In this document: positions 46,070 to 61,899 of the stretch, in pieces
How positions within the stretch are numbered: position 1 is the stretch's first letter
Layout: every line of letters starts with the position of its first letter
NCBI RefSeq assembly: GCF_000308875.1
Contig: NZ_BAGL01000013.1
Span: 62,001-126,000 of the forward strand
Source of the DNA: Nocardia transvalensis NBRC 15921
Lineage (GTDB): Bacteria > Actinomycetota > Actinomycetes > Mycobacteriales > Mycobacteriaceae
Reading direction: 5' to 3'
Length of the DNA stretch: 64,000 nucleotides
Position numbers and translations under genes: made by a program
The notes under the pieces: model-generated
The model's input: only the letters and a program-made list of their open reading frames with translations
Told to the model about the DNA's origin: nothing
The model's database searches: none

Positions 46070-46088
46070 TAAGGTAAGCCTATGCAAA
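46070..46088. promoter_or_regulatory. IdeR/DtxR iron box 1
   Basis: TAAGGTAAGCCTATGCAAA matches the consensus TTAGGTTAGGCTAACCTAA at most positions, allowing its A/T and G/C choices. It lies 44 bases before the N-hydroxylase start. Confidence 0.75.
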
Positions 46089-46131: not shown

Positions 46132-47424
46132 GTGGATACGCTTCTGGTGGTCGGAGCCGGGCCGAAGGCGATGGCCGTCGCGGCCAAGGCGCGGGTGCTG
46201 CGGGACCTGGGCCTGCCGGCTCCGCGCGTCGTGGTGGTGGAATCGCATACGGTCGGCGGCAATTGGCTGCCCAGCGGCGGCTGGACCGACGGTCAGCACC
46301 GGCTGGGCACCGGCCCGGAGAAGGATGTCGGGTTCCCGTACCACTCGACCTGGGCGCGCGGGCACAACCGCGCGATCGATCAGGCGATGGTCGGCTTCAG
46401 CTGGACCTCGTTCCTGGTCGAGAACGGCACCTACGCGGAATGGGTCGACCGCGGCCGGCCCAGCCCGCAGCATCACGTCTGGGCGAAATACCTGCAGTGG
46501 GTCGCGGCCAAGGCCGAGGTCGAGCTGGTCTCCGGGACCGTGCGGCAGATCCGCGCCGCGGCCGACGGCTGGCTGGTCTCGGTGGCCGACGCCGACGGCG
46601 CGATCACCGAGATCGATACCGACCGGCTGATGATCACCGGCCCGGGTAAGAGCGGCCGGGCGTTGGCCGAGCACCCGAAAGTCCTGAGTATCGCGGACTT
46701 CTGGGATCTCGCCGGTAAGCGCCGGCTGCCCGCCTCCTCGCGGGCGGCGGTCATCGGCGGCGGCGAGACGGCCGGATCGGCGGTGGACGAACTGGTGCAC
46801 CACGACGTGCTGACCGTCTCGGTGATCTCGCCCGCGGCCACCCTTTACACCCGCGGCGAAAGCTATTTCGAGAACGCGCTGTTCAGCGATCCGGCCAAGT
46901 GGCGGGCGCTGAGCCTGCAGGAGCGCCGCGACGTCATCCGGCGCACCGATCGCGGCGTGTTCTCCGTCCGGGTGCAGGAGAACGTACTGGGCGACAACAG
47001 GGTTCATCACCTGCAAGGCCGCGTGGTGCGGGTCGCCGAGCAGGGCGAGGGCGTGGCGCTGACGCTGCGCAACGAGTTACGCCCGGATCAGGTGCACGGA
47101 TTCGATCTGGTGGTCGACGCGACCGGCGGGCAGCCGCTGTGGTTCCTGGATCTGTTCGACGCCGACGCCGCCGATCTGGTCGAGCTGGCGGTCGGCGGTC
47201 CCGTGACGCAGGCGCGGCTGGAGGCGTCCATCGGCCACGATCTGGCGGTCGACGGGCTCGACGCGAAGCTGTATCTGCCCAACCTCGCGGGCCTGGCCCA
47301 GGGGCCGGGTTTCCCGAATCTCAGCTGCCTGGGCGAACTTTCGGATCGGGTGCTCGGCGGTGCGCCGGGGCGGGCCCTGGCGACCGCCGGACGGGTCTCG
47401 GGGGCGCACGATCGGACCCACTGA
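46132..47424 (+). CDS. mbtG: MbtG-like amine N-hydroxylase for siderophore synthesis
   Basis: 430 residues, closely like mycobacterial MbtG throughout. The FAD site is VVGAGPKAMAVAAKA, followed by VGGNWLPSGGWTDGQHRLGT and GPEKDVGFPYHSTWARG. The NADPH site is VIGGGETAGSAV. GESYFENALFSDPAKW and QGPGFPNLSCLGELSDRVLG are also shared. It hydroxylates the side-chain amine of Lys or Orn to make the iron-binding hydroxamate precursor; MbtG uses Lys, but the neighbouring formyltransferase points to Orn or Lys carried as an N-formyl-N-hydroxy residue. GTG 46132 follows GGAGA. IdeR box 1 lies upstream, so iron should repress it. Confidence 0.9.
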   Translation: MDTLLVVGAGPKAMAVAAKARVLRDLGLPAPRVVVVESHTVGGNWLPSGGWTDGQHRLGTGPEKDVGFPYHSTWARGHNRAIDQAMVGFSWTSFLVENGTYAEWVDRGRPSPQHHVWAKYLQWVAAKAEVELVSGTVRQIRAAADGWLVSVADADGAITEIDTDRLMITGPGKSGRALAEHPKVLSIADFWDLAGKRRLPASSRAAVIGGGETAGSAVDELVHHDVLTVSVISPAATLYTRGESYFENALFSDPAKWRALSLQERRDVIRRTDRGVFSVRVQENVLGDNRVHHLQGRVVRVAEQGEGVALTLRNELRPDQVHGFDLVVDATGGQPLWFLDLFDADAADLVELAVGGPVTQARLEASIGHDLAVDGLDAKLYLPNLAGLAQGPGFPNLSCLGELSDRVLGGAPGRALATAGRVSGAHDRTH

Positions 47425-47432
47425 GGGTGTGA

Positions 47433-47451
47433 GTAGGCTAGGCTACCCTTA
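47433..47451. promoter_or_regulatory. IdeR/DtxR iron box 2
   Basis: GTAGGCTAGGCTACCCTTA matches the iron-box consensus at about 15 of 19 positions. It lies in the 51-base gap before the formyltransferase gene, so the second unit of the locus has its own iron-controlled promoter. Confidence 0.75.
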
Positions 47452-47475
47452 GTGGTAGAGAATGAGGTTCGGTTC

Positions 47476-48417
47476 ATGCGTATCGTGTCGTTCGGCTTTC
47501 AGACCTGGGGCCGGAAAACGCTGCAGGCTCTGATCGAGTCGGAGCACGAGGTCGTGCTCGCGGTCACCCACCCCGCGAGCGAGCATGCCTACAAGGGCAT
47601 CTGGTCCGATTCGGTCGAGGAGCTGGCTCGCGAGCACGGCATCCCGGTCCATCTGACCGAGCGGGCCGATGCCGAGACCATCGACCTGGTGAAGCGGGCC
47701 GAGCCCGACGTCATCGTGGTGAACAGCTGGTACACCTGGATGCCGCGGGAGCTGTACGCCATGCCCCCGCACGGCACGCTGAACCTGCACGATTCGCTGC
47801 TGCCGAAGTTCACCGGTTTCTCCCCGGTGCTATGGGCCCTGATCAGCGGCGAGTCCGAGTTCGGGCTCACCGTGCACCGCATGGACGAGCGGCTGGACGC
47901 CGGCGACATCCTGGTGCAGCACTCGCTGCCGATCGGCCCGGACGCGACCGGCACCGAACTGGTCCTGGCCGGGCTGGAGCTGATTCCGGGCGTGCTCGAG
48001 GAGGCGCTGGGCGCGATCGAATCCGGCACCGCCGAGTGGCGCCCGCAGAGCAACTCCGAGCGCACCTACTTCCACAAGCGTTCCGAGCGCGACAGCCGGA
48101 TCGATTGGCACTGGGACGCAGTCGATCTCGAGCGTTTCGTGCGGGCGCTGTCGGAGCCGTATCCGCGGGCGTTCTCCTACTATCGCGGCGAGAAGGTCGA
48201 AATCCTCGCGTCGGCACTGTCGGAGGCCCGGTACGGCGGGACCCCGGGCCGCGTGGTCGTCGTCGAGGGCGGCGGCGTGGTGGTCTGCGGCCCCGACGCC
48301 CATCGCGGGCGCAACCGCGGCCTGCTGATCACCCGGGTGCGTACCAGCGACGGCGTCGAGTACGACGGGGCCCAATTCTTCGCCCGCGGCGGGTATCTGA
48401 CCGATTCACCCGCATGA
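47476..48417 (+). CDS. Formyltransferase for siderophore hydroxamate (FxbA-like)
   Basis: 313 residues of the methionyl-tRNA/GAR formyltransferase superfamily. The folate-binding catalytic region NLHDSLLPKFTGFSPVLWAL and VHRMDERLDAGDIL place the conserved Asn, His and Asp. The C-terminal domain is of Fmt type. As it sits between an amine N-hydroxylase and an NRPS and overlaps the NRPS start by four bases, it should transfer formyl from N10-formyl-tetrahydrofolate to the hydroxylated amine, as FxbA does for exochelin and Rft for rhodochelin. ATG 47476 follows GAGG by eight bases. A housekeeping Fmt would not be in this context. Confidence 0.9.
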   Translation: MRIVSFGFQTWGRKTLQALIESEHEVVLAVTHPASEHAYKGIWSDSVEELAREHGIPVHLTERADAETIDLVKRAEPDVIVVNSWYTWMPRELYAMPPHGTLNLHDSLLPKFTGFSPVLWALISGESEFGLTVHRMDERLDAGDILVQHSLPIGPDATGTELVLAGLELIPGVLEEALGAIESGTAEWRPQSNSERTYFHKRSERDSRIDWHWDAVDLERFVRALSEPYPRAFSYYRGEKVEILASALSEARYGGTPGRVVVVEGGGVVVCGPDAHRGRNRGLLITRVRTSDGVEYDGAQFFARGGYLTDSPA

Positions 48418-51400
48418 CTTCCTTATCGGCGGGGCAGCGCCGCATCTGGTTCCTGCAGACCCGCGATCCCGAGGACACCACGCTCAACAGTTGCGCGGTG
48501 TACCGGCTGCGCGGTCCGGTGGATGCCGGGCGGTTGCGCGCGGCCGTCGACGGGGTGGCGGAACGGCACGAAATCCTCCGCAGTACATACGATTCCGATG
48601 ACGAAGGCGAACCTTTTCGGGTCGTGCGCGAGGGTATCGGTCCGTCGTGGCAGGAACTGGACGTCTCCGAACTGACCGGGTCGAGCCGGGCGCGGCGGCT
48701 GGAGGTGCTGGTGCGCCGGGCCGCCGGGCGGCCGTTCGATCCGACGGCGGAAGCGCCCCTGCGCTGCCTGCTGATCCGTACGGACGTCGAGGAATACATC
48801 TTCGCGCTGGTTATACACGCCATCGGCTGGGACGAGGGTTCTTGGACGGTGTTCTGTGACGAGGTGAGCCACCGATACAACGGCACGGACCTTCCCACGG
48901 CCGCCGCGGCGCAAAACGCGAGCGGGGCAACCGAATCCGGGATCGAGTACTGGCGTCGTACGCTGCGCCCGCTGCCGCAGCCACTCGAGCTGCCGGGACG
49001 CGTCGCCGTACCCGCCGGGTCGGCATCGCAGGCCGCGCGCCGTGTCCGCGAGCTTCCCGGTGATCTGATGGCTCGCGTCGAGGAGTTCGCCCGCGACCGG
49101 GGCACGACACCGTTCACCGTGCTGCTCGCCGCCTACGACGTGTTGCTCCATCGCTACACCGCGGCTACGGATTTCCTTGTCTCCGTACCCGTCTCGGTGC
49201 GCGAAACGGATTCCGAGGGCATCGGATACTTCGGCAACTCGGTGCTGCTGCGGGCAGCCGTACGTCCCGGCGACACCTTCGCCGGATTCACCGACACCGT
49301 CCGCGACGCCGTCACCGGCGCGTTCGCGCATCGGGACATCGGCATCGATCGCGTCGTGCGCGAGGTCAACCCGGAACGGGACGGCGGCCGGGACGGGCTG
49401 GAACAACTGGTGCGCACCGAATTCGGAATACGTTCCGGTGCGGCCCGATTCGCGCTCGACGGCATCGAGTCCACCCTGCTCGAATTCGGCAGCCCTAGTA
49501 CTCGAATCCCGCTGTCACTCACGGTCGTCATGGATGCCTCCGCCGAATCCGCCTCGGCGAGTGCGGGAATGCCGCCTTCTCCCGTCGCCCGCCTGGAGGC
49601 CGAGTACCAGGTCGACCGGGTCGAGTGCGAGATCGTCGAGCAGGTGCTGTCGAACTACGTCCGGCTGCTGGACAGCGCGCTGGCCGAGCCGGGCCGCCTG
49701 ATCGGCGACCTGGACATGTTCGGCGGCCAGGACCGCGCCGGAATCCTGGAGCAATCGCACGGGGAACTGGTCGCCACCGAACCCACCACGCTGGTGGCGT
49801 TGGTCGAGCGCCGGGTCGCGGCCACGCCCACCGCCACGGCGCTCGTCGCCGCGGCCGAGGGCGACCGCGAATACGACTACGACCACCTCGATCGGCGCGC
49901 GAACCGCTTGGCGCACTGGCTCATCCGGCGGGGCATCGGCACGGAGGATGTCGTCGGGCTGCGGCTGGAGACATCCGTCGAGTTCGTGGTGGCGGTCCTG
50001 GCGGTGCTGAAAGCCGGCGCCGCGTACCTGCCGATCGATCCGGCCTACCCCGGCGAACGCATCGACCTGCTCGCCGCCGACGCGCGGCCGGTACTGATGC
50101 TGCGCCGCTCGGGCACCGGCGGTGCGGGCGACGGGGAGGCCGACTTCGACGCCGCGGAACGGGAGGCGGGTGCGCTCGCCGACCACGCACCCACCGACGC
50201 CGACCGGGTCCGCCCGCTGCGGCCCGGCAATCTCGCCTACGTCATCTACACCTCGGGATCGACGGGGACCCCCAAGGGCGTGCCGGTCACGCACGCGGCC
50301 ATCGCCGAACACGTGGAGGGCTTCCGCGCGCAGTGGGGGATGACCGCCCGCGACCGGCTCCTGCAATCGTCCTCGATCAGCTTCGACGCCTCCCTGCTCG
50401 ACCTGTTCGTCACGCTGACTCTCGGTGCGTGCCTGGTGATTCCGAAGCCGGACGCCTTCCGCGACATCCCGTACGTCGCCGATCTGATCTCCCGCTGCGG
50501 AGTCACCGTGCTGCACATGGTGCCGTCGCTGCTGCGCACGTTCCTGATGCTGCCGGAGGTGAAGCAGTGGCGGGCGCTGCGCCACGTCCCGGTCGGCGGC
50601 GAGGCCCTGCACGGCGAGGTGGCGGACCGATTCGCGGGTGTCTTCGACGCCGAGCTGCGCAACCACTACGGGCCCACCGAGGCGGTGGTGTCCGCCACCC
50701 ACCTGACCGTGGAGGGGCCGCAGGGGACCCGGATCGTGCCGATCGGCCACCCCAATCGCAACGTGTACGTCTACCTCCTCGACGAGCGGCTGCACCTCGT
50801 CCCGGCCGGGGTGGTCGGCGAGATCTATCTGGGCGGTGAGCAATTGGCGCGCGGCTACCTCCGGCGGCCGGGCGCCACCGCGAAGCGTTTCGTGGCCGAC
50901 CCGTTCCGCCCGGAACGGCGGCTGTATCGCACCGGCGACCTGGCGCGGCGCAATATCCGCGGCGAACTCGAATTCCTCGGCCGCGCGGACGAACAGGTGA
51001 AGGTGCGCGGCTACCGGATCGAACTCGGCGAGGTGGAGGCGGCCGTCGCGAGCCATCCCGCCGTCGCGCAGTGCGTGGCTACTGCGGTGCCGGACAAGGC
51101 GATCGGCACGGTGCTGGCGGCCTACGTCGTGCCCGCGGGCGACGCCGTCGACATCGACGCGGTCAGGGCCCACGCGGCCATGACCCTGCCGGAATATATG
51201 GTGCCCGCGGCCTTCACGGTGATCGACGAGATCCCGCTCACCGAGCACGGCAAACTCGCCCGCCGCGCACTGCCGCCGCCCGCACCCGTGAGCGTCGAAC
51301 TGTATCGGGAACCGGTGACCGCCACCGAGATCCGGCTCGCCGAGGTGTTCGGGGAGCTGTTCGGCCGGGACCGGGTCGGGGCCGGCGATTCGTTCTTCGA

Positions 51401-51566
51401 CCTCGGTGGGCACTCGCTGCTGGCGGCCCGGCTGCTGGCGCGCGTCCGCGCCGAATTCGGCGTCGAGATCGGGGTCCGGGTGCTGTTCGAGACCCCGACG
51501 GTGACCGGCCTGGCCGCGCTCGTGGAGGCGGCCGCGGCACGCAACACACCCCTGGAGGTCGGCTGA
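48414..51566 (+). CDS. Siderophore NRPS, C-A-PCP, condensation domain lacks catalytic His
   Basis: 1050 residues. The condensation domain (1-430) begins SLSAGQRRIWFLQ, but its HHxxxDG motif reads HAIGWDEGS, so the second His (residue 136) is Ala. The adenylation domain (about 450-955) is complete: YTSGSTGTPKG, NHYGPTEAVVS, YRTGDLARR and the C-terminal EHGKLARRALPP. Pocket residues read by eye are D-A-L-H-P-G-H-V-S. The PCP (about 965-1040) has FFDLGGHSL with the phosphopantetheine Ser. It probably loads the first, formyl-hydroxylated residue; a starter module need not condense, which could explain the lost His. It overlaps the formyltransferase by four bases and the next gene by one. Confidence 0.93.
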   Translation: MTSLSAGQRRIWFLQTRDPEDTTLNSCAVYRLRGPVDAGRLRAAVDGVAERHEILRSTYDSDDEGEPFRVVREGIGPSWQELDVSELTGSSRARRLEVLVRRAAGRPFDPTAEAPLRCLLIRTDVEEYIFALVIHAIGWDEGSWTVFCDEVSHRYNGTDLPTAAAAQNASGATESGIEYWRRTLRPLPQPLELPGRVAVPAGSASQAARRVRELPGDLMARVEEFARDRGTTPFTVLLAAYDVLLHRYTAATDFLVSVPVSVRETDSEGIGYFGNSVLLRAAVRPGDTFAGFTDTVRDAVTGAFAHRDIGIDRVVREVNPERDGGRDGLEQLVRTEFGIRSGAARFALDGIESTLLEFGSPSTRIPLSLTVVMDASAESASASAGMPPSPVARLEAEYQVDRVECEIVEQVLSNYVRLLDSALAEPGRLIGDLDMFGGQDRAGILEQSHGELVATEPTTLVALVERRVAATPTATALVAAAEGDREYDYDHLDRRANRLAHWLIRRGIGTEDVVGLRLETSVEFVVAVLAVLKAGAAYLPIDPAYPGERIDLLAADARPVLMLRRSGTGGAGDGEADFDAAEREAGALADHAPTDADRVRPLRPGNLAYVIYTSGSTGTPKGVPVTHAAIAEHVEGFRAQWGMTARDRLLQSSSISFDASLLDLFVTLTLGACLVIPKPDAFRDIPYVADLISRCGVTVLHMVPSLLRTFLMLPEVKQWRALRHVPVGGEALHGEVADRFAGVFDAELRNHYGPTEAVVSATHLTVEGPQGTRIVPIGHPNRNVYVYLLDERLHLVPAGVVGEIYLGGEQLARGYLRRPGATAKRFVADPFRPERRLYRTGDLARRNIRGELEFLGRADEQVKVRGYRIELGEVEAAVASHPAVAQCVATAVPDKAIGTVLAAYVVPAGDAVDIDAVRAHAAMTLPEYMVPAAFTVIDEIPLTEHGKLARRALPPPAPVSVELYREPVTATEIRLAEVFGELFGRDRVGAGDSFFDLGGHSLLAARLLARVRAEFGVEIGVRVLFETPTVTGLAALVEAAAARNTPLEVG

Positions 51567-52651
51567 TGACGAGCCTGATGCCCGAGATCGACAGTGTGCG
51601 AGCGGAATTCGCGCCAACGATATCGCCGCGGCACCGCGTGGTCGGCGAATGGGCCACCGGCGTCGAACTGTCGGATGTGATCGGAATCGCCGGGCTGGCC
51701 CGGCGCGGCCGCGGGATCCCGATCGTCCGGACGGCCGTCCGTTGCGGGACGGACAGCATCGACTACGGCGAAGTGTTCACCAAGGTGGACACGCCTGGCG
51801 CCGCGGCCGGCCCGGGAATCATCGGCTCCTGCGTGCGACTGCTGGCCGCCCTCGTCGCCTGTGACGGCGGCCCGGTCCGGCTGGGCGCGGGGCGGCGGAT
51901 GAGCGCTGCCGCGGTGGCCGCGGCGGTGGCCGACCGGCGCGCGGTCGCGGCCGAACGTCGCTGCGGCCCGGTCGATCCCGCACTCGGCTCGGCCGACGTC
52001 CGGCTCGTCGTCGCTCCCTGGGGCAGCCCGTACCTGCTGGTCGAACTGCTCGCCGCGCTCGCGGACGGCGCGGCCCTGATCGTCCCCACACCCGCCGAGC
52101 GCGGCGATCCGAACGCGCTGGCGGAGTTGATCGCCACGCGATCGGTCACTCATGTCGTCGCGCCGCCCGGCGCGCTGGCGGGTCTCCCCGAGACGGGACT
52201 GCCGACGGTGCATCGCTGGGACGTCATCGGCACCACCTGCCCGCCCGGCCTCGCCGAGCGGCTGCGTGCCGTATCACCGGGCGCTGTCGCGAGTTTCGGA
52301 TACGGGTTGGCGGACTACGCCGGCGCCGTCGCCCGCGGACCGCTGGACGGCACGGGACGGGTCCGCCCGATTCCCGGCGCCCGCGTCCTGGTGCTCGACG
52401 AATACGGGCGGGCCGTGCCGCCCGGCACGATCGGCGCCGTCTACGCCGGTGGCGCCGCGCTGATCGAACCCGATGGGGCACAGGCCGATTGGAGCCGATT
52501 CATCCCGGACCCCTTCCCGCTGGAAGGTATCGGGAGCGCGCTGTGCCGGACCGGCGAGCGGGCCCGATGGACGCCGGAGGGCTGGCTCGTCTTCGGCGAT
52601 TCCGAACCGCACCGGGTGGGCCGACCAACCTCCGACGAAATATTAGCTTAG
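51566..52651 (+). CDS. Degenerate stand-alone adenylation-domain-like protein
   Basis: 361 residues. The outline of an adenylation N-subdomain can be followed: TDSIDYGEVFTK (A1-like), SCVRLLAALVACDGGPVRLG (A2-like), LLVELLAALADGAALIVPTP with a VTHVVAPPG strand (A4 region), GARVLVLDEYGRAVPPGTIG (A5-A6) and CRTGERARWTPEGWLVFGDS (A7-A8). The P-loop-like SGSTGxPKG and the YGPTE motif are absent, and there is no C-terminal subdomain with the catalytic Lys and no PCP. It should not activate an amino acid. The frame is long and intact and its ATG overlaps the NRPS stop, so it is expressed; a scaffold or MbtH-like helper role is possible. Its stop codon lies inside IdeR box 3. Confidence 0.75.
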   Translation: MTSLMPEIDSVRAEFAPTISPRHRVVGEWATGVELSDVIGIAGLARRGRGIPIVRTAVRCGTDSIDYGEVFTKVDTPGAAAGPGIIGSCVRLLAALVACDGGPVRLGAGRRMSAAAVAAAVADRRAVAAERRCGPVDPALGSADVRLVVAPWGSPYLLVELLAALADGAALIVPTPAERGDPNALAELIATRSVTHVVAPPGALAGLPETGLPTVHRWDVIGTTCPPGLAERLRAVSPGAVASFGYGLADYAGAVARGPLDGTGRVRPIPGARVLVLDEYGRAVPPGTIGAVYAGGAALIEPDGAQADWSRFIPDPFPLEGIGSALCRTGERARWTPEGWLVFGDSEPHRVGRPTSDEILA

Positions 52652-52661
52652 CCTAAGCTAC
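52643..52661. promoter_or_regulatory. IdeR/DtxR iron box 3
   Basis: TTAGCTTAGCCTAAGCTAC is an almost perfect palindrome and a strong iron box. It overlaps the stop codon of the A-like gene (TAG at 52649-52651) and lies 51 bases before the binding-protein gene. Confidence 0.85.
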
Positions 52662-52711: not shown

Positions 52712-53719
52712 ATGAACCCTGGTCGAACACTCGCGGGACGGATCTTCGGTACCCGCGCGCGGGCCACGACGCGTCGGATGGGTCTGGCCGCACTGGCCCT
52801 GGGGCTCGTGCTGAGCGCGGCCGCCTGCGGATCCGGTGACGGCGACTCCGCGTCGTCCGGCGCGGTGACCATCAAACACACCATGGGCGAGGCCACCATC
52901 GAGGGCACGCCGCAACGAGTGGTCGCGATCGGCCCGCAGTGGCTGGATGCCGCTGTGGCGCTGGGGGTCACGCCGGTCGGCTACCTGGTCCCGGGCGCGG
53001 CTCCCGGTCAGACCGTGCCGTGGCTGCCGCAGTCGCTGGCGCAGCAGTCGAAAGCGCTGACGGCGGGCGGCGACCTCGCCGAGCAGATCGCGGCGCTGAA
53101 TCCGGATCTCATCGTGGCCCCCGGCTACATGATGGACAAGGCGATGTACGACAAGCTGTCCAAGCTCGCGCCCACGATCGGGCCGCTGACCAGCGCGCAG
53201 ATCGATCCCTGGGAGGACCAGACCACCGCGCTCGGCAAGGCCCTGCACAAGGAGCCCGAGGCCGAGAAGGTCGTCGCCGACGTGCACGGCAAGATCGACG
53301 CCGTCGCCGCGAAGCATCCGGGCCTGACAGGTAAGACCTTCCTGACCTGCATGCTGACCACCCCGACCCAGCTGATGGTGCTCGCCGATCCCAAGGACGG
53401 TTCGGCCCAGCTGTTCACCCGGCTCGGGATGACCATGCCGGAGAAGCTGGTCGCCGAGGCGCCGACCGGCGGCCGGCTGTCCCTGTCGCCGGAACGGCTC
53501 GGCGATCTGACCGCCGACATGCTCGTGTGCGGCGCGGCGCCCGGCCTGGAGGCGAAGTTCAAGCAGCTGCCCGGTTACTCCGACCTGCCGTCGGTGCGTC
53601 AGGGCGGGATCGCCTTCGTCGACATGATCGGCATCAACGCCATCAACGTGCCGACCGCGCTGTCGCTGCCGTACGTGCTCGACAAGCTGGAACCGACGTT
53701 CGCGAACGTCGGGAAGTGA
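52712..53719 (+). CDS. Ferric-siderophore-binding lipoprotein (FecB/FepB type)
   Basis: 335 residues. The N terminus has Arg pairs, a hydrophobic core and the lipobox LSAAAC-GSG, so the mature protein is lipid-anchored at the outer face of the membrane. The rest is a type III substrate-binding protein: EGTPQRVVAIGPQWLDAAVAL, LNPDLIVAPGYMMDKAMYDK and VRQGGIAFVDM. It should capture the ferric siderophore. The usual FecCD-type permease is not adjacent; only the half-transporters at 60037-63629 are. ATG 52712 follows AAGGAG. It is the first gene after IdeR box 3 and is followed after 11 bases by the C-PCP gene. Confidence 0.9.
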   Translation: MNPGRTLAGRIFGTRARATTRRMGLAALALGLVLSAAACGSGDGDSASSGAVTIKHTMGEATIEGTPQRVVAIGPQWLDAAVALGVTPVGYLVPGAAPGQTVPWLPQSLAQQSKALTAGGDLAEQIAALNPDLIVAPGYMMDKAMYDKLSKLAPTIGPLTSAQIDPWEDQTTALGKALHKEPEAEKVVADVHGKIDAVAAKHPGLTGKTFLTCMLTTPTQLMVLADPKDGSAQLFTRLGMTMPEKLVAEAPTGGRLSLSPERLGDLTADMLVCGAAPGLEAKFKQLPGYSDLPSVRQGGIAFVDMIGINAINVPTALSLPYVLDKLEPTFANVGK

Positions 53720-53730
53720 GAGGGACCGCC

Positions 53731-55368
53731 ATGCCCGATACGCCATCCCGGTCCGCCGACCGCGGTATCCCGCTGACGCTGGCCCAGCAGGCCGCGTTGC
53801 TGCCGGAGCGCATGCGCCGCACACCGGTCGCGAATCTGTCCGTGGCGCTGGAGGTTTCGCCCGGCCTGGACGCCGAGGCGCTGGATCGCGCCGCGGTCGC
53901 GGTGATCGAGCGGCACGAGATCCTGCGCACCGTCTACCCCGACGATCGCCGGATTCCGTACCAGCGGGTGGTTCCCGCGCCCGAGTCGGTGGTGGAGGTG
54001 GTCGAGACGGACGAGGCTCGCCTCGATGCCGAGCTGGCCGCCGATGCGGGGCGCCAATTCGATTTGCTGACCGAGTTGCCGGTGCGAATCCGGTTGTACC
54101 GCTTACCGGGTCGCGACGTGCTGTCGATCGTCGCGCATCCGGTGGCCGCCGACGACCGGTCGCTCGAGCTGCTGGTCGCGGCGCTGTTCGAGGCGTACGA
54201 CGGTGCGCCCGTGGCGGCGACCGCCCAGTACCGGACCTTCGCGCTGGCACAGCTGAAGACGCTGGCGGGCAATGCCGCCGGTGACGCGGGCCTGAACTAC
54301 TGGCTGGAGCGGCTCGCGGAGCTGCCCGAGCGGGCGGATCTCACGGATGCGGAGCCCGGTGAGTCGGTCGCGCGCCGGGTGTTCCGGGTATCCGGGGTCG
54401 TCACCGAGGCCGACGCGGTTGCACTGGTGGCGCATGTGCTGAGCGCGGCCGGAATGGGCGATGACATCGCCGTGGGTGTCGCCGATTCCGATCGGGGCGC
54501 CGACGGGGCCGATACGGCCCTGGGCAACTTCGCCAATCACCTTGTGCTGCGGATCGATACGGCCGGTGGACGTCCGCCGCGGCAGCTCGTCGCGGACGCG
54601 GCGGCGCTGGTGGACGAGGCGCGGGCGCATACCGGGACCCGCATCGAGCGGATCACCCACCAGATGCGCGGTGTGGCCGCGGTATCCAGCGGCTCGCTGT
54701 TCCAGGCGCTGGTCACAGTGCGGCCGGGCGCGCTCGCGCCCGCGGTGTCGGGGCTGAGCGTGCGGGAACTCTCGCGCCGCACGGCCCGCCCGCACGGCGT
54801 CGACCTCGTGGTGGACGTCGTCACCGAGGACGAGGGCGCGACGATCACCCTCGAATTCGCGCCCGCACTGGCCGCGCACCCCGAAATCGGTAAGTTCGCT
54901 GACCTTCTCGAGCGGACGTATGCGGAGTGGGCCGCCGCGCCCGAGGTTCCGACCGCGCCGGCTGCTCCAGTGCTGTTCAGCCGCGACGAAGTGCCGGAGC
55001 CGGGTGTCACCGGACTGGGCGGTGCCCCGCGCACCGACGCCGAGCGCATGGTCGCGGACGCCATTCGCGAGATTCTCGACCTGGACGAGGACGACGAGGT
55101 CGGGCGCAAGGACACCTTCTTCTCGCTGGGCGGGGACAGCATCGCCGCGTTGCGGCTGGTCACCCTGCTCGGCGAGCGCGGTCACGTCCTGGACGTGCAG
55201 AAGGTCTTCGAGTTCCCGGCCCTGTTCGAACTCGCCGAACAGCTCGAGACCGCCGATCCCGCGGCCGAGTCCGCGGCGGCCCCGGCGCCCGCGGTGGCGC
55301 CGATGGCCGCCTCCGGTCTGGACCCTGCCGCGCTGCAGGCGCTCGGTCGGAAGTTCGCCGGCCGGTGA
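53731..55368 (+). CDS. C-PCP didomain protein with inactive-looking condensation domain
   Basis: 545 residues: a condensation-type domain (1-430) and a carrier domain (about 450-525). The condensation motif HHxxxDG reads HPVAADDRS, with Pro at residue 137 for the catalytic His. The carrier has FFSLGGDSIAALRLV; GGDSI is usual for carriers placed before epimerisation domains. There is no adenylation domain, so the carrier must be loaded in trans or serve as a relay to the NRPS that follows. The C-terminal Ala/Pro linker ends in LDPAALQALGRKFAGR. GTGA overlap with the next gene suggests a split of one original multidomain protein. Confidence 0.85.
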   Translation: MPDTPSRSADRGIPLTLAQQAALLPERMRRTPVANLSVALEVSPGLDAEALDRAAVAVIERHEILRTVYPDDRRIPYQRVVPAPESVVEVVETDEARLDAELAADAGRQFDLLTELPVRIRLYRLPGRDVLSIVAHPVAADDRSLELLVAALFEAYDGAPVAATAQYRTFALAQLKTLAGNAAGDAGLNYWLERLAELPERADLTDAEPGESVARRVFRVSGVVTEADAVALVAHVLSAAGMGDDIAVGVADSDRGADGADTALGNFANHLVLRIDTAGGRPPRQLVADAAALVDEARAHTGTRIERITHQMRGVAAVSSGSLFQALVTVRPGALAPAVSGLSVRELSRRTARPHGVDLVVDVVTEDEGATITLEFAPALAAHPEIGKFADLLERTYAEWAAAPEVPTAPAAPVLFSRDEVPEPGVTGLGGAPRTDAERMVADAIREILDLDEDDEVGRKDTFFSLGGDSIAALRLVTLLGERGHVLDVQKVFEFPALFELAEQLETADPAAESAAAPAPAVAPMAASGLDPAALQALGRKFAGR

Positions 55369-58300
55369 CCGTCGAGATCCGCGACGTCGTCGCGCTGTCC
55401 CCGCTGCAGCGCGGGCTGTATTCGGTGAGTTCACTTGCGCGCGAGGGTGATCCGTATCTGGTCACCTTCGCGGTGCGGGTCGACGGCCTCGCCGATCTGC
55501 CCGCGCTGCGGCGCGCGTTCGACGAACTGCTCGACCGCTACCCGCATCTCGGGGCCTCGGTGCTGGCCGAGGACGTGCCGCATCCGGTGCTCGTGATCAC
55601 CTCCGCCGGCCGAATCGGCTGGCGGGAGGTCGATCTGCGCACGGCGGACGATCCCGAGGCGGCGGCGCGGCAGCTGTACTGGGACGAGGCGCGACGTCCG
55701 CTGGATCTCGACATCGGCCCGCTGTTCCGGGTCGTGGCGGCGCGGGTCGGTGACGCCGACTACGAATTGGTCTGCACCGCACACCATATCGTCGTGGACG
55801 GCTGGTCCATCCCGCTGCTGTTCTCCGATCTGATCGCGTTGCACGCCGGTGGCGGCGCCGCGCTGCCGCCCGCACCGCCGCTGCGCGAACACGCGGCCTG
55901 GTTGGCGACCCGCGACACCGCGGAGTCGGGGCGGGCTTGGGCGTCGGCGCTGGACGGCCTCGCCCCGATGCCGATGATCGGGCCGCCGGCCCCACCCGAG
56001 GTGGAGCTGCCGGTCGTCGGCGAGGCCCGCGTGGACGCGGCCGCCACCGGCGCGCTGCTCGCCTGGGCGCGCGGGCGCGGGCTGACGCTCAACACCCTGC
56101 TCCAAATGTCCTGGGCGCGTATTCTTTCCGGGCTCACCGGGCGCGACGACGTGGTCTTCGGGCAGACCACCTCGGGCCGGGACGCGTCGCTGCCCAATGC
56201 CGAACGGCTCGTCGGCGCGCTCGTCACCACCATCCCGGTCCGCGTCCGGATGGACGACCGCGATCCGGGCGAGATCGGCGCCCGGCTGCAACGCGAGGTA
56301 GCCCGGTTGCGCGCCCACGAGTACCTCGGCATCGCCGAGATCACCCGCCACGCGGGTGCGGGCCAGCTCTTCGACACCCTCCTGGTCTTCGAGAACTCGC
56401 CCGTCGGCGACGTCACCGCCGGCATGCCCATGGGCGGCGGCGCCACCATGACCCCCCGCCGCGTCGACTCCCCGAGCCACTACCCCCTCGCGATCGTCCC
56501 GGTCCTCGAGAACGGCACCCTCATCTGCCGCGTCGAAACCCGCCCGGACGTCGAAACCACCTTCGCCCCCACCCGCATGGCCCGCCGAGTCCTCACCGTC
56601 GCCCAGCGCCTCACCGAAACCGATCGAGCCTCCGCCACCGACGTCCTGCTGGACGACGAGCCCCCGGCCCTGACCGCCACCGACCCCTCCGCCGCCGCAC
56701 CGGCCGATTCTTCCGCCGCCGCATCCCCATTTTTCCGGCATGCTTTTGGCCGGAATCCCCAGTTGCCAGCGGTGGATCCCGGCCAAAAGCGTGCCGGGAA
56801 GAGGGTGCCTGGTGCCGGGAAGACGGTGGCTGGTGCCGGGAAGACGGTGGCTGGTGCCGGGAAGACGGTGGCTGGTGCCGGGAGCGTGGGACTGGGTGTT
56901 CCGGGGAAGTTGCTGGATGCTGCTGGGAGTGCTGCCGGGCGGACGGCTGTGGTCGATGCGGTGGGGGAGCACTCCTTCGAGGAGTTTGCCTCCGCTGTAA
57001 GGGCTTTGGCGGAGGGGCTGCGGGCAGCGGGCATAGGGCCCGGCGATTCCGTCGCGGTCATGTTGCCTCGGGATCGGCGAGTTCTGCACGCGCCCTTCGC
57101 TATCGGGTACGCGGGCGGTACGTGCGTGCATCTGGATCCTGCGACGCCCGCGGATCGTGTCGCCTATATTCTCGAAACCTCCGGTGCGCGAATCATCTTG
57201 GCGGACGCGGCGCGGGCCGATGTGATCGCTGAGGTTCGTGCGTCCGGGATCGATTGCCTGCACGGCGTACCCGACAACGACGGCCGCCTGCGGTTCGCGT
57301 CGCCGGAGGGGGCCTCTCCGGAGGAAATCCACGACACCGGCCCATTCTCCGGCAACGGCACCACCACTTTTCCGGCACGCTTTCGGCCGGAATCCACAAC
57401 TGGGGACGCTCCCTTCTATGTCGTGTTCACCTCCGGCACCACCGGTCGCCCGAAAGGCGTTGCCGTATCGCATGGTTCGCTGCTCAATCACTGGGCGAAC
57501 CACGAGCGCCGGATCTTCGCACCCACGACGGCGAAGACGGGGCGGCAGCTGCGGATCGGTCACGGCTGGTCGACCGGGTTCGATGCCGCGTGGCAGCCGA
57601 CCGTCGCCCTGCTGAGCGGGCATACGGTGGTGCTGCTCGGCGACGAGGTGCGCACCGATGCCGAGCGCATCGTGGCCGCGATCGACGACTTCGGTATCGA
57701 TATCTTCGACACCTCGCCGTCGATGCTGAATCGGCTGATCGCCGCGGGGTTGTTCCGGACGCGCGACGGGCGGGAGCACTGCCCGCTGGCGGTGCTGGCG
57801 CTCGGCGGCGAGGCGATCAGCCCCGATACCTGGCGGCGCCTGCGGGGCCTGCCGGAGACTCGGGTGATCAACTTCTACGGTCCCACCGAGACCACGGTGG
57901 AAGCGCTGATGGCGGACGTGCACGAGCACGCCGCGCCGACCATCGGACGCCCCTTCGACGGGATGACCGCCGAGGTGCTGGACCATCGGCTGCGTCCGGT
58001 CCCGGTCGGCGGTACGGGTGAGCTGTATCTGTCCGGACCGCAGCTGGCGCAGGGATACCTGGGCAGGCCCGGGACCACCGCCGCGGCCTTCGTCGCCGGA
58101 TCGCACGGAAGGCGTTACCGCACCGGCGATCTGGTGCGGCGCGCCGCGGACGGCACCGTCGCGTACGAGGGGCGCATCGACAGCCAGGTGAAGATCAACG
58201 GGTACCGGGTCGAGCCCGACGAGGTCACCGTCGTCCTGCGGGAGCTGACGGGCATCCGGCACGCCGCGGCACTGGCGTTCACCGAGAACGGCCGAACTCG

Positions 58301-60047
58301 CCTGGGCGCCTTGGTCGTCGGCACACCATCGGCAGGGCACATTCGCTCGGCCCTGGCCCGGCGGTTGCCGCAGTTCATGGTGCCGACCCGCATCGTGCAC
58401 GTCGAGCAGATCCCGCTGAACCGCAACGACAAACTGGATGTGCACGCCGCCGCGGCCCTGCTGGCCCGCCCGTCCGGAACGACGGCCGCCGCACAGCCGG
58501 GGACCGACACCGAGCGCACGCTGCTCGCGGTGATCACCGCGATGTCCACCGCGCCGGACGGTACGCAGCCTCGCGTCGGAATCCTCGACAGCCTGCTCGA
58601 TCTGGGCATCGACAGCATCGGCGTCATCGATCTCGTGTCCCGTCTGCGGGGCGCGGGTTTCAAGGTCTCGGCACGAAATGTGCTGGCCGCCGCCGATCTG
58701 CGCGACCTCGCCCACCGCCTGGACCACCCGGACGCTCTCGACGAACCTCTCGCCGAGGTCATTCCGGCGGGAACGGTTCTGCCGCTCACGGACTTGGCCA
58801 ACGAGATCCTCGCCAACGGCGACTACCGCTATCTCGCACAGTCCCAGGTGATCTCGCTCCCCGCCGAGGTCTCGGTGGACGAGATCCTCGCGCGGCTCGA
58901 GGCCCTCGCCACCGCACACCCGACCCTGCGTTCCCGCCTGCACACCGAAGGCACACCGGTCCTGGTCGTCGGCGAAACCTCCAGCGCCGCCGAACTCCTC
59001 TCGATCGCCGCCGAATCACAGGACCCCACAGCCGCTGTGGCGGCCACCGTGGAACGCCTGGACCCCGAAGCGGGCCGCATGGTCGCCGCGACCATCCTGG
59101 AGGGCCCACCCCGCCGCCTACTGCTCTCGATCCACCACCTGGCGGTCGACGTCGTCTCCTGGCTCATCCTCATGGACGACCTGCGCCGCTTGGAGCAGGG
59201 GGAAGTCCCGCTGAACGAGGTTTGCGACACCTCGCCGAACCAGGCGCACGACCCTTCTCCGAACGACACGCCCGACCCTTCTTTTTTCCGGCACGCTTTT
59301 GGCCGGAAACCACCGTCGCAGGTGGGGGATCCCGGCCAAAAGCATGCCGGGAAAACGAAGATTGTCGGCACGGCGCTCGGCGGAAGACTGACGAATCCCG
59401 CGACCGACAAGGCGGGTAAGGCTATTCAGCGTGTGGTCGAACTCAACCCTGCCCGCACCGCACAGTTGCTGAGTGGCTGTGCGAATGCCGGTGTGCCGCT
59501 GGAGGACGCGTTGTTGGTGGCGTGTGCGTTCACCGTGGCCGATACCGCGGACTCGGCGGGCTACATCGCGGTGACGCGTGAATCGCACGGGCGCGCACCG
59601 GATAACGATACGCGGCGCGTCGGCTGGTTCACCGTGGAGGAAACGGTGCTGGTGCCGGCCGATGCCGAGGGCTGGACGCCGGAGTCGGGCCGGCCGCCGC
59701 TGGCCGGCCGCACCCTGGCCGCTCGCGGCCAGATCCGGCTCAATCACCTGGGCCGATTCGATGTGCTGCAGTTCGGTTCCGGGCCGTGGACGCCGGTCCC
59801 GCTGGCGGATTTCACCTCGGAATTCGGCGTGACCGGACATCCGGATCTCCCGCTGCGATTCACCCTCGACGTGAATACCGCGGTGGTGTCCCGGGATTCG
59901 CGGCCCGTGCTGGTCGCGCAGTTCGACGTCAACTCGGCGGTACTGGACGAGGCCGAGGTACAGGCCCGCACCGACCGGTGGCTGGCCGCAGTGTCGATGT
60001 TCACCGCGGGTGGGCAGCAGAGCAGGGAGGGAAACCATGACGGCTGA
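55365..60047 (+). CDS. Siderophore NRPS, C-A-PCP-E, with three repeat-derived inserts
   Basis: 1560 residues from GTG 55365, which overlaps the previous stop by four bases. Condensation domain: ALSPLQRGLYSVS and intact HHIVVDGWS (residues 140-148). Insert 1 (residues about 456-503) lies in the C-A linker. Adenylation domain about 505-1010 with core FTSGTTGRPKG; insert 2 (about 668-677) lies just before that core. Carrier: LGIDSIGVIDL near 1080. Epimerisation domain from about 1125 with intact HHLAVDVVSW (1257-1266); insert 3 (about 1307-1330) follows the motif. Pocket residues by eye: D-A-Q-D-L-L-F-V-E. It should add a D-configured residue. No thioesterase or reductase follows. The inserts keep the frame and come from the dispersed palindromic repeat. 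It overlaps the next gene by 11 bases. Confidence 0.93.
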   Translation: MTVEIRDVVALSPLQRGLYSVSSLAREGDPYLVTFAVRVDGLADLPALRRAFDELLDRYPHLGASVLAEDVPHPVLVITSAGRIGWREVDLRTADDPEAAARQLYWDEARRPLDLDIGPLFRVVAARVGDADYELVCTAHHIVVDGWSIPLLFSDLIALHAGGGAALPPAPPLREHAAWLATRDTAESGRAWASALDGLAPMPMIGPPAPPEVELPVVGEARVDAAATGALLAWARGRGLTLNTLLQMSWARILSGLTGRDDVVFGQTTSGRDASLPNAERLVGALVTTIPVRVRMDDRDPGEIGARLQREVARLRAHEYLGIAEITRHAGAGQLFDTLLVFENSPVGDVTAGMPMGGGATMTPRRVDSPSHYPLAIVPVLENGTLICRVETRPDVETTFAPTRMARRVLTVAQRLTETDRASATDVLLDDEPPALTATDPSAAAPADSSAAASPFFRHAFGRNPQLPAVDPGQKRAGKRVPGAGKTVAGAGKTVAGAGKTVAGAGSVGLGVPGKLLDAAGSAAGRTAVVDAVGEHSFEEFASAVRALAEGLRAAGIGPGDSVAVMLPRDRRVLHAPFAIGYAGGTCVHLDPATPADRVAYILETSGARIILADAARADVIAEVRASGIDCLHGVPDNDGRLRFASPEGASPEEIHDTGPFSGNGTTTFPARFRPESTTGDAPFYVVFTSGTTGRPKGVAVSHGSLLNHWANHERRIFAPTTAKTGRQLRIGHGWSTGFDAAWQPTVALLSGHTVVLLGDEVRTDAERIVAAIDDFGIDIFDTSPSMLNRLIAAGLFRTRDGREHCPLAVLALGGEAISPDTWRRLRGLPETRVINFYGPTETTVEALMADVHEHAAPTIGRPFDGMTAEVLDHRLRPVPVGGTGELYLSGPQLAQGYLGRPGTTAAAFVAGSHGRRYRTGDLVRRAADGTVAYEGRIDSQVKINGYRVEPDEVTVVLRELTGIRHAAALAFTENGRTRLGALVVGTPSAGHIRSALARRLPQFMVPTRIVHVEQIPLNRNDKLDVHAAAALLARPSGTTAAAQPGTDTERTLLAVITAMSTAPDGTQPRVGILDSLLDLGIDSIGVIDLVSRLRGAGFKVSARNVLAAADLRDLAHRLDHPDALDEPLAEVIPAGTVLPLTDLANEILANGDYRYLAQSQVISLPAEVSVDEILARLEALATAHPTLRSRLHTEGTPVLVVGETSSAAELLSIAAESQDPTAAVAATVERLDPEAGRMVAATILEGPPRRLLLSIHHLAVDVVSWLILMDDLRRLEQGEVPLNEVCDTSPNQAHDPSPNDTPDPSFFRHAFGRKPPSQVGDPGQKHAGKTKIVGTALGGRLTNPATDKAGKAIQRVVELNPARTAQLLSGCANAGVPLEDALLVACAFTVADTADSAGYIAVTRESHGRAPDNDTRRVGWFTVEETVLVPADAEGWTPESGRPPLAGRTLAARGQIRLNHLGRFDVLQFGSGPWTPVPLADFTSEFGVTGHPDLPLRFTLDVNTAVVSRDSRPVLVAQFDVNSAVLDEAEVQARTDRWLAAVSMFTAGGQQSREGNHDG
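56730..56874. repeat. Palindromic element, copy E, inside the NRPS gene
   Basis: Inverted units at 56730-56756 and 56775-56800, then four 21-bp tandem units (56791-56874, GTGCCGGGAAGACGGTGGCT). It is translated as PFFRHAFGRNP, DPGQKRAGK and the heptapeptide repeat GAGKTVA. Confidence 0.95.
57368..57393. repeat. Palindromic element, copy F, inside the NRPS gene
   Basis: A single unit (core CCGGCACGCTTTCGGCCGGA) translated as TFPARFRPES, in a reading frame different from copies E and G. It lies about 45 bases before the adenylation core motif. Confidence 0.9.
59283..59354. repeat. Palindromic element, copy G, inside the NRPS gene
   Basis: Inverted units at 59283-59308 and 59328-59354 around a 19-base loop, translated as FFRHAFGRK and DPGQKHAGK, the same frame as copy E. 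It falls in the epimerisation domain about 145 bases after the HHLAVDVVSW motif. Confidence 0.95.
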
Positions 60048-61899
60048 GACCGTCGAACAGGCCGCGCCGGAGACGGAGGCGCCGATACCCGCGCCGGACA
60101 AGGTGGCGCTGAAACAGCAGAAGAAGGCCGACGGCGTCGCCCGCAAGAAGATCCTGGCGCCCGTGAACGGTGCGCTGGCCCTCGCGAGCCTGGTGATCGT
60201 GATCGCCTCGGTCTGCTCCGTCGTGCCGTTCATCCTGATCGTCGAGGCATGCCGCGAACTACTGTCCGCACCGGTCGATACGGATCGCGTGTGGTGGCTG
60301 GTGATCAGCGCGGTCGTCGTGCTGATCGTGCGCGGCCTGCTCGAGGCCGGGGCCCTGGTCCGGACGCACCTGCTCGACGCGAGCTTCCAGCACACCCTGC
60401 GGCAGCAACTGGCCGCCAAGCTGACCCGGGTGCCGCTGGGCTGGTTCACCGACCGCAGTTCGGGCGAGGTCAAGAGGTTCCTGCAGGACGACGTCGAGGC
60501 GCTGCACTATCTGATCGCGCACGCGCGGCTCGACTTCGTCGGCGCGGTGACCGTCCAAGTGGTCGCGCTCGTCTACCTTTTCACCGTCGACTGGCGGCTC
60601 ACCCTGGTATTGCTGATTCCGCTGTTCCTCTACACGCGGGCGCTGGCCGCCATGATGGGCGAGGGGCATCGCGAGCGTTTCGCCGTCTTCGCGGGCGCCG
60701 AACGCAAGATCGAGGAGTCGACGATCGAATTCGTCGACGGCATCCAGGTGGTCCGCGCGTTCGGACAGGCCCGCAAGGCGCACAACACCTTCCAGGACGC
60801 GGTCGACAAGACGGCCGCGGGCCTGCTGGCGTGGAAGACCCCGATGACCCGGTTGCAGGCCGCCGCCGAGATCCTGCTGACCCCGCTGTTCATGATGCTG
60901 GTCGTGGTGGTGGCCGGGCTCGGATTCGTCGGGCTGGACTGGATCGAACCGGTCGACATCCTCCCGTTCCTGCTGGTCGGCATCGGGCTGGGCAGCGCAC
61001 TGCTCGGCATCGGGTACAACGGGCAGGCGCTGCGCGAGGGCGCGGCGGCGGCGCTGCGGTTGCACGAATTGCAGCAGACGCCGGAACTGGTCGCCCCCAC
61101 CAGCGGCGGCTCGGGGCTCGACGCGGACACCAAGGCCGGGCTGCCGGTGCGGTTCGAGGACGTCAGCTTCGGCTACCGCAAGGACCGCACCGTCCTGCGC
61201 GACATCGATATCGAGCTGGCGCCGGGCACCATCACGGCACTCGTCGGACCCAGCGGTTCCGGCAAGTCGACGCTGGCCCGCCTGCTGCCGCGCTTCTACG
61301 ACGTGACCGCGGGACGGATCACCATCGGCGGCAAGGACCTTCGCGAGTTCTCCACCGAAGAGCTGTACCGCACAGTCGGATTCGTGCTCCAGGACGTGCA
61401 GATGATTCGCGGCACCATCCGCGAGAACATCCTGCTGGCCCGCCCCGACGCCGACGAGGCGACCGTCGAGCGGGCCGCCCGCGCGGCGCAGATCCACGAA
61501 CGCATCGTGGCCTTGCCACGCGGCTACGACTCCGAGATCGGCGTCGACGCCATCCTTTCCGGAGGCGAGGCGCAGCGGCTGTCCATCGCGCGCACCCTGC
61601 TGGCCGACACCCCGGTGCTGGTCCTCGACGAGGCCACCGCCTTCGCCGACCCCGAATCCGAGGCTGCGGTGCAGGACGCGCTCGCGGTGCTGGTCGCCGA
61701 CCGGACGGTGCTCGTCATCGCGCACCGGCTGCACACCATCACCGGCGTCGACCGGATCCTGGTGCTGGAGAACGGAATCGTGGTCGAGAACGGCGACCAC
61801 CCGACACTGGTCCGGGCGGGCGGGCTCTATCAGCGGCTGTTCGAGACGAACGAAGCCTCCATGAACGAGATCCAGCTCGTGGAAGGGGAGACCCGATGA
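60037..61899 (+). CDS. ABC half-transporter, IrtA-like siderophore transporter
   Basis: 620 residues: a basic N terminus, six membrane helices (about 45-330), then an ATPase domain. Walker A is GPSGSGKSTLA, the signature is variant (LSGGEAQRLSIARTLL), and Walker B is VLVLDEATAFADPESE, as in IrtA and YbtP/Q-type importers with exporter fold. Unlike mycobacterial IrtA it has no FAD-containing siderophore-reductase domain at the N terminus, so iron release must be done by another protein. It should pair with the next protein and import the ferric siderophore; export cannot be excluded. ATG 60037 follows GGAGGG and overlaps the NRPS end by 11 bases; it overlaps the next gene by four. Confidence 0.9.
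   Translation: MTAETVEQAAPETEAPIPAPDKVALKQQKKADGVARKKILAPVNGALALASLVIVIASVCSVVPFILIVEACRELLSAPVDTDRVWWLVISAVVVLIVRGLLEAGALVRTHLLDASFQHTLRQQLAAKLTRVPLGWFTDRSSGEVKRFLQDDVEALHYLIAHARLDFVGAVTVQVVALVYLFTVDWRLTLVLLIPLFLYTRALAAMMGEGHRERFAVFAGAERKIEESTIEFVDGIQVVRAFGQARKAHNTFQDAVDKTAAGLLAWKTPMTRLQAAAEILLTPLFMMLVVVVAGLGFVGLDWIEPVDILPFLLVGIGLGSALLGIGYNGQALREGAAAALRLHELQQTPELVAPTSGGSGLDADTKAGLPVRFEDVSFGYRKDRTVLRDIDIELAPGTITALVGPSGSGKSTLARLLPRFYDVTAGRITIGGKDLREFSTEELYRTVGFVLQDVQMIRGTIRENILLARPDADEATVERAARAAQIHERIVALPRGYDSEIGVDAILSGGEAQRLSIARTLLADTPVLVLDEATAFADPESEAAVQDALAVLVADRTVLVIAHRLHTITGVDRILVLENGIVVENGDHPTLVRAGGLYQRLFETNEASMNEIQLVEGETR

Follow-up and report, generated by a model that had tools for sequence, protein, structure and literature searches.

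A degenerate stand-alone adenylation domain in the nocobactin-type siderophore clusters of Nocardia, with a possible structural role in trans

The window, by which we mean the whole stretch of 64,000 nt analyzed here, comes from Nocardia transvalensis NBRC 15921 (GCF_000308875.1, contig NZ_BAGL01000013.1, positions 62,001-126,000, forward strand) and carries a siderophore gene cluster whose members are collected in Table 1. A lysine hydroxylase, a formyltransferase, NbtD-like and NbtE-like non-ribosomal peptide synthetases (NRPSs) and a C-T unit are all found in it, and from this gene content the cluster appears to be of the nocobactin type. Within it lies a gene for a degenerate stand-alone adenylation (A) domain, to which we refer as A*. 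Part of a large multimodular NRPS occupies positions 1-10139 (+), outside the siderophore run as far as seen.

Table 1. Coordinates of A*, its neighboring genes and nearby iron-box-like sites in the window
Feature	Position	Strand	Basis or remark
Lysine N6-hydroxylase (NbtG-like)	46132..47424	+	Pfam PF13434
Iron-box-like site (16/19), putative head of the formyltransferase-NbtD-A* run	47433..47451	+	Site scan
N-formyltransferase (TerH-like), first gene of the run ending in A*	47452..48417	+	Formyl_trans_N, Formyl_trans_C (Pfam)
NbtD-like NRPS, C-A-T only, without second module; stop overlaps A* start	48414..51566	+	Start corrected from 47832
A* (stand-alone degenerate adenylation domain, 361 aa)	51566..52651	+	ORF, Pfam, motif alignment, predicted fold
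Iron-box-like site (16/19), overlaps A* stop; on the promoter side of the next gene	52643..52661	+	Site scan
FecB-like siderophore-binding protein	52712..53719	+	Pfam PF01497
Discrete C-T didomain without A domain	53731..55368	+	C motif HPVAADD where HHxxxDG expected
NbtE-like NRPS, C-A-T plus a further condensation-type (E-like) domain	55362..60047	+	Start approximate
ABC transporter (membrane and ATPase domains)	60249..63629	+	Domain matches

The A* frame, from its ATG to the last base of its stop, has no internal stop codon, and is therefore as intact as the sequence-only reading of this locus had described it. The overlap with the preceding NRPS was also correctly noted: the TGA of the latter (51564-51566) shares a base with the ATG of A* (TGATG), and a GGAGGT lies immediately upstream of A*. 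Both the sequence match and the core fold place the protein in the AMP-binding/adenylation-domain superfamily. Its only Pfam match is to PF00501 (56.9 bits, cut-off 29.9) and spans the second half of the model, positions 204-379 of 384; AMP-binding_C (PF13193) is not matched, the chain stopping before motif A8. On TIGR01733 it scores 62.5 bits, against a curated cut-off of 317.4 for a functional NRPS A domain. The motif layout was read by aligning A* to its relatives and to the two A domains of the cluster itself. At the N-terminus stands the C-A linker, with GEWATGVE in the consensus and in the window copy alike, and this linker persists in A* copies even when no C domain precedes them. Compared to normal A domains, A1 is present, A2-A3 are deleted together with the SGSTG motif, A4 and A5 are degenerate (VAPWGSPY, and YGLADY in place of YGPTE), and A6 and A7 are partly kept and still recognizable before the chain ends short of A8-A10. 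None of the three hallmarks of a functional domain (SGSTG in A3, YGPTE in A5 and the C-terminal subdomain A8-A10) is left, and the earlier description of A* as an A-domain remnant devoid of them agrees with Pfam and with the motif alignment. The C-terminal subdomain of A domains carries the catalytic lysine. Because this subdomain and the P-loop motif are missing, A* should not adenylate.

In an AlphaFold2 model built from 25 sequences the A-domain core is predicted with confidence (pLDDT 83.3, pTM 0.81), and the solved structures that resemble it best are NRPS A domains and modules, tied at Z 30-31, such as the Txo1 C-A didomain 6ozv (Z 31.0, 314 aligned, rmsd 2.7), suggesting that the core of A* retains the A-domain fold. 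A sequence search of the PDB found 74 distinct sequences, of which the 60 listed are NRPS A domains or acyl-CoA-ligase-like enzymes. For a fused C-A*-T module, modeled on three sequences, the pLDDT was 37.5, too low for a docking surface to be read from the prediction.

Three iron-box-like sites, each with 16/19 matching positions, occur in the window cluster (starting at 46070, 47433 and 52643). Iron control of A* had been proposed in the sequence-only reading, and this stands in part. As the third gene, after those for the formyltransferase and NbtD, A* seems better placed under the site that precedes the formyltransferase gene, a placement made from sequence only, while the site overlapping its own stop would belong to the gene that follows. 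Two details of the neighborhood deserve mention. An ORF opening at 47832 would give NbtD a 190-residue N-terminal domain (47832-48410), but this supposed domain, of odd composition and with no Pfam or PDB match, comes from reading the formyltransferase gene out of frame; the true start of NbtD is at 48414. In the C-T didomain, the second His of HHxxxDG is replaced by Pro, and the same replacement is also found in many relatives with a discrete C-T.

The search for homologues that had been suggested as a check showed 78 of the 150 genus genomes to carry the A* class with an E of 1e-24 or lower, a cut picked after a gap had been seen between the weakest genome kept (3.5e-26) and the next (3.6e-20); at E 1e-10 all 150 genomes match, through ordinary A domains, with some 13 candidates scored per genome. 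Relatives of the lysine hydroxylase are present in 134/150 genomes and in 77 of the 78 that bear A*, an association with a Fisher p of 8e-5 when relatedness among genomes is ignored. The exception is a genome (G074, locus L112) in which the hydroxylase and the first A domain of NbtD were both not found; its A* is fused to a partial C domain and is divergent from a FecB-like gene.

In 57 genomes of the 150 the hydroxylase is present but A* was not found, and we examined 20 of their loci (L137-L156). Eight belong to close relatives that keep the gene order of the window, with A* missing between NbtD and FecB (L137-L144); in eleven others, of C-A-T-C-T architecture, the borders of C and T lie 25-32 residues apart, and the last is cut off by a contig edge. 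Both fused C-A*-T modules and C-T modules without A* exist and, given the eight relatives of identical order, A* is dispensable to the pathway. In a scan of named genomes we counted at least 24 A* loci, all of them from Nocardia among the matches listed, including N. wallacei, N. transvalensis, N. brasiliensis, N. cyriacigeorgica, N. otitidiscaviarum and N. altamirensis. The latter is reported to make amamistatins (PMC8978914, in the text available, where gene cluster, NRPS and domain are not mentioned), so that a species bearing A* yields a normal member of the compound class, albeit with different strain numbers for the genome and in the paper. A single-sequence search of genome contigs and an alignment-based search of viral contigs found no relative of A*; among plasmids 185 records matched, and none of the 20 listed had one place covering 80% of A*.

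A* is a separate gene in 50 of the 78 genomes, window included, and is fused to NbtD in 26, as C-A-T-C-A*-T (nine), C-A-T-C-A* (seven) or C-A-T-A* (ten). In the two others (L108 and L112) only a partial C domain is left before it; L050 resembles them and was entered as separate, the architecture of G026 was read across two contigs, and L058 begins at a contig end. Three genomes (G042, G133 and G099) hold a separate A* together with a shorter embedded one. As in the window, the gene sits directly behind NbtD in five relatives (L039, L040, L041, L052 and L053). A tree of 48 Nocardia copies requires five changes between the fused and separate states; well-supported branches force at least four of them, and not one of 200 bootstrap trees permits a single change. 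Since sister genera have their second A domain in fused form, we read most of these switches as probable releases from the NRPS, though re-fusion is possible.

These sister genera are informative about the origin of A*. At E 1e-30 or better, 86 of 401 genomes of the family match. Other genera supplied 14 of the loci that we fetched, of which six are C-A-T-C-A-T, four are C-A-T-C-A*-T with a shorter A*, and four (L196, L197, L198 and L200) are ordinary multimodular NRPSs. The second A domains of the six are homologous to A* by tree, linker and A4-A6 signatures; unlike A*, they are full length and keep SGSTG and GKLD or GKLN. In a quick tree of 77 rows, an SH-aLRT of 99 supports the separation of A* and these domains from the A domains of first and third modules and from others. 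Tree, motifs and domain order together indicate that A* derives from the second A domain of NbtD, whose architecture in sister genera is C-A-T-C-A-T. In the six loci (L191-L195 and L199), which contain a FecB-like or a hydroxylase gene, motif A4 of the second A domain is SFLDGG-like and not SFDVS, and its substrate may differ from an alpha-amino acid.

The same comparison bears on whether A* could have become an enzyme of a new activity, for instance one transferring the acyl group onto the C-T carrier. The pathway text that we consulted (PMC7413640) gives no dedicated enzyme for this loading, and the predicted model retains the core fold. However, the residues conserved in A* within the compared motif blocks are mostly shared with the sister-genus second A domains, and no new set of catalytic residues is apparent in these blocks. 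We regard this as highly improbable, and as the least probable of the explanations considered.

As its own refutation, the sequence-only reading had named an absence of homologues and signs of neutral decay, with a dN/dS near 1. Neither is the case. We calculated dN/dS by the Nei-Gojobori method on pairs that are not independent, taking as close those with an A* dS of 0.1-0.6. The median over the 124 close pairs is 0.205, with 0.196 for 99 separate pairs, 0.225 for 24 fused pairs and 0.76 for the one mixed pair, where a copy counts as separate if its upstream open frame is shorter than 900 codons, a class into which L103, which is broken, and the embedded L065b and L077b also fall. The highest value among the 99 separate-class pairs is 0.594. 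Over the same genome pairs, wherever the neighboring gene fell inside the fetched locus, FecB gives 0.189 (65 pairs), the first C domain 0.244 (48), the first A domain 0.121 (56) and the hydroxylase 0.055 (54). In close pairs A* is under purifying selection, with a dN/dS around 0.2 like that of neighboring genes. The 70 closest pairs listed lie between 0.08 and 0.39, except for a group formed by L048, L072 and L103 (0.46-0.57). Across all 2,610 pairs with dS of 0.05-1.2 the median rises to 0.50, which stands against very strong constraint. We weighted close pairs more, since in distant ones saturation leads to an undercount of synonymous change; this weighting was decided after both medians were known.

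L103 (genome G125) has an interrupted frame and no iron-box-like site, and is the sole clearly broken copy among the 77 extracted. The relaxation in its group is evidence for the loss of A* in one lineage.

A* could be a relic that no longer has a function and is in the course of being lost. The graded series from a full A domain to A*, a shorter A* and none at all would fit such a course, as would the eight relatives lacking A* in an otherwise identical gene order, the broken copy with the weaker constraint of its group, and the median over near and far pairs. Yet dN/dS in close pairs has a median of about 0.2 and does not exceed 0.594 in any separate-class pair; a single copy is clearly broken, and most separate copies have an iron-box-like site upstream, including one far away from NbtD. 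For the close-pair dN/dS and these sites we rank pure decay low, as distinctly improbable.

Sites with at least 15/19 matches within 450 bases upstream were found for 40 of the 49 separate A* copies scanned. First-order Markov resampling reaches at most 14/19, and among 980 segments of 510 bases drawn at random from these loci 59 reach 15/19. The nine separate copies without a site are those of the window and of its five relatives with A* behind NbtD, L086 and L088, where A* is behind another same-strand cluster gene, and the broken L103. Sixteen genomes have A* and FecB in divergent orientation, less than 400 bases apart, so that one site may serve both genes. The separate copy of G149 (L067:9286-10392) lies 158 kb from NbtD, beside genes for a glycogen-debranching enzyme, a glycosyltransferase, a GntR-aminotransferase and an M13 peptidase, with an iron-box-like site about 70 bases upstream. 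Iron control of A* is, in the window and elsewhere, a prediction from sequence.

MbtH-like proteins, of around 70 residues, are small non-catalytic NRPS partners encoded beside NRPS genes. A* shares with them its place beside NRPS genes and its candidacy as a non-catalytic partner, but differs in its 361 residues and in lacking PF03621, a Pfam search at E 0.001 returning PF00501 only. The sequence-only reading noted that MbtH was missing here and suggested that A* could take its role. None was indeed found on the contig of the window; two copies are nonetheless encoded on other contigs of the same genome, and all 148 genus genomes searched (148/148) have MbtH, which led us to drop an MbtH substitute as the main reading. 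A* might still assist the lysine A domain in the manner of MbtH, as its activator or chaperone: it stands immediately behind NbtD in the window and in five relatives, its start overlapping the NbtD stop in the window copy, and it is fused to C-A-T in ten genomes. The ubiquity of MbtH, the lack of any MbtH match in A* and the 57 hydroxylase-positive genomes in which A* was not found all weigh against this, and we consider it improbable. The origin of A* points rather to the acyl (C-T) step of the second module than to a general A-domain chaperone. A trans-acting adaptor role, in the wider sense of the sequence-only reading, remains plausible.

The variety of architectures in which A* is kept, including directly after the lysine T domain (C-A-T-A*), could also be the consequence of a docking function. 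A* would then, rather than fill out the C-T module, be a platform recruiting the polyketide synthase (PKS) carrier NbtC, the hydroxylase or the formyltransferase, much as X domains recruit P450s, a precedent taken from a review in the part available. The C-A-T-A* arrangement of ten genomes suits a hub near the lysine-loaded carrier, and in the window A* comes after the formyltransferase and NbtD. However, we found no partner-specific pattern, and the C-T unit is kept in 19 of the 20 A*-negative loci examined. We hold such a platform to be unlikely.

Our best reading, to which we give an even chance of being right, is that A* is the dead, separate and iron-controlled former A domain of the second NbtD module, with a structural role in trans at the C-T step. 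In the text available for N. farcinica, NbtD (C-A-T-C-T) is given the task of inserting, in ester linkage, a hydroxy fatty acid that a PKS has made (PMC7413640). If the hydroxy-acyl unit of the second module is supplied by a polyketide synthase, the ester step would need no adenylation, and the second A domain could decay because its activity had become unnecessary; its ATP-binding part and C-terminal subdomain would then have been lost. What survived, a core with its C-A linker, may act in trans at the C-T (acyl-ester) step, where it would be a platform or a spacer. The retained linker would suit docking on the C domain in trans or, alternatively, could be needed just for folding of the core. 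About 1 kb downstream of A* the window encodes a C-T protein without an A domain of its own, and the two could therefore rebuild a C-A*-T module together. Action as a protein in the assembly line, with the C-T module as partner and in a structural capacity, is what we find most likely. Several observations count against it: no A* was found in 57 hydroxylase-positive genomes, eight of the relatives examined manage without it in the gene order of the window, C-T modules occur with and without A*, three genomes have both an embedded and a separate A*, the median dN/dS over all pairs is higher than in close ones, and the C motif of the window didomain is damaged.

A broader proposition, that this pseudo-A domain has become an autonomous iron-regulated NRPS subunit, repeatedly released in one genus and serving as a non-catalytic substitute in trans in the module that it left, we advance tentatively and would not be surprised to see fail. 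Such a subunit would have taken or kept an iron box, and its gene may sit far from the cluster. Degenerate A domains are easily taken for annotation noise or evolutionary debris. The same dead domain, kept by selection both fused and free, with at least four switches between these states and mostly with iron-box-like sites ahead of the free copies, is a natural experiment on the non-catalytic role of A domains, and on what A* does for condensation and carrier domains, that is relevant to the engineering of PKS-fed NRPS modules. A* may also add an unrecognized gene to nocobactin-type siderophore pathways.

We found no description of a free-standing, truncated and iron-controlled A domain in nocobactin clusters in the mostly non-subscription literature that we searched, which is weak evidence that the free-standing form is new; truncated A domains within siderophore NRPSs are already known. 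As far as the available text describes it, NbtD of the N. farcinica nocobactin NA cluster, of the same gene family and pathway step, has no A remnant in its C-A-T-C-T, and no truncated A protein is mentioned (PMC7413640). The closest parallel is the dA of fungal SidD and Nps6 (PMC10192304, available text). Like A*, it is by origin the A domain of a second module in a siderophore NRPS, has lost a large part, is inactive and is still retained. That domain stays inside the NRPS and lacks some 290 N-terminal residues, whereas A* lacks the internal A2-A3 stretch and the C-terminal subdomain and is a separate gene in 50 genomes; the window copy shares with it the loss of the catalytic part of a second-module A domain, but not the location in cis. 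In albicidin synthetase, from what we could see of its description, a dead A domain is complemented in trans by a stand-alone A-T (PMC8949500), so that the separate protein is the active one there and the dead one here. Degenerate A domains are further known, on the available text, from S. pombe Sib1 (PMC2644324).
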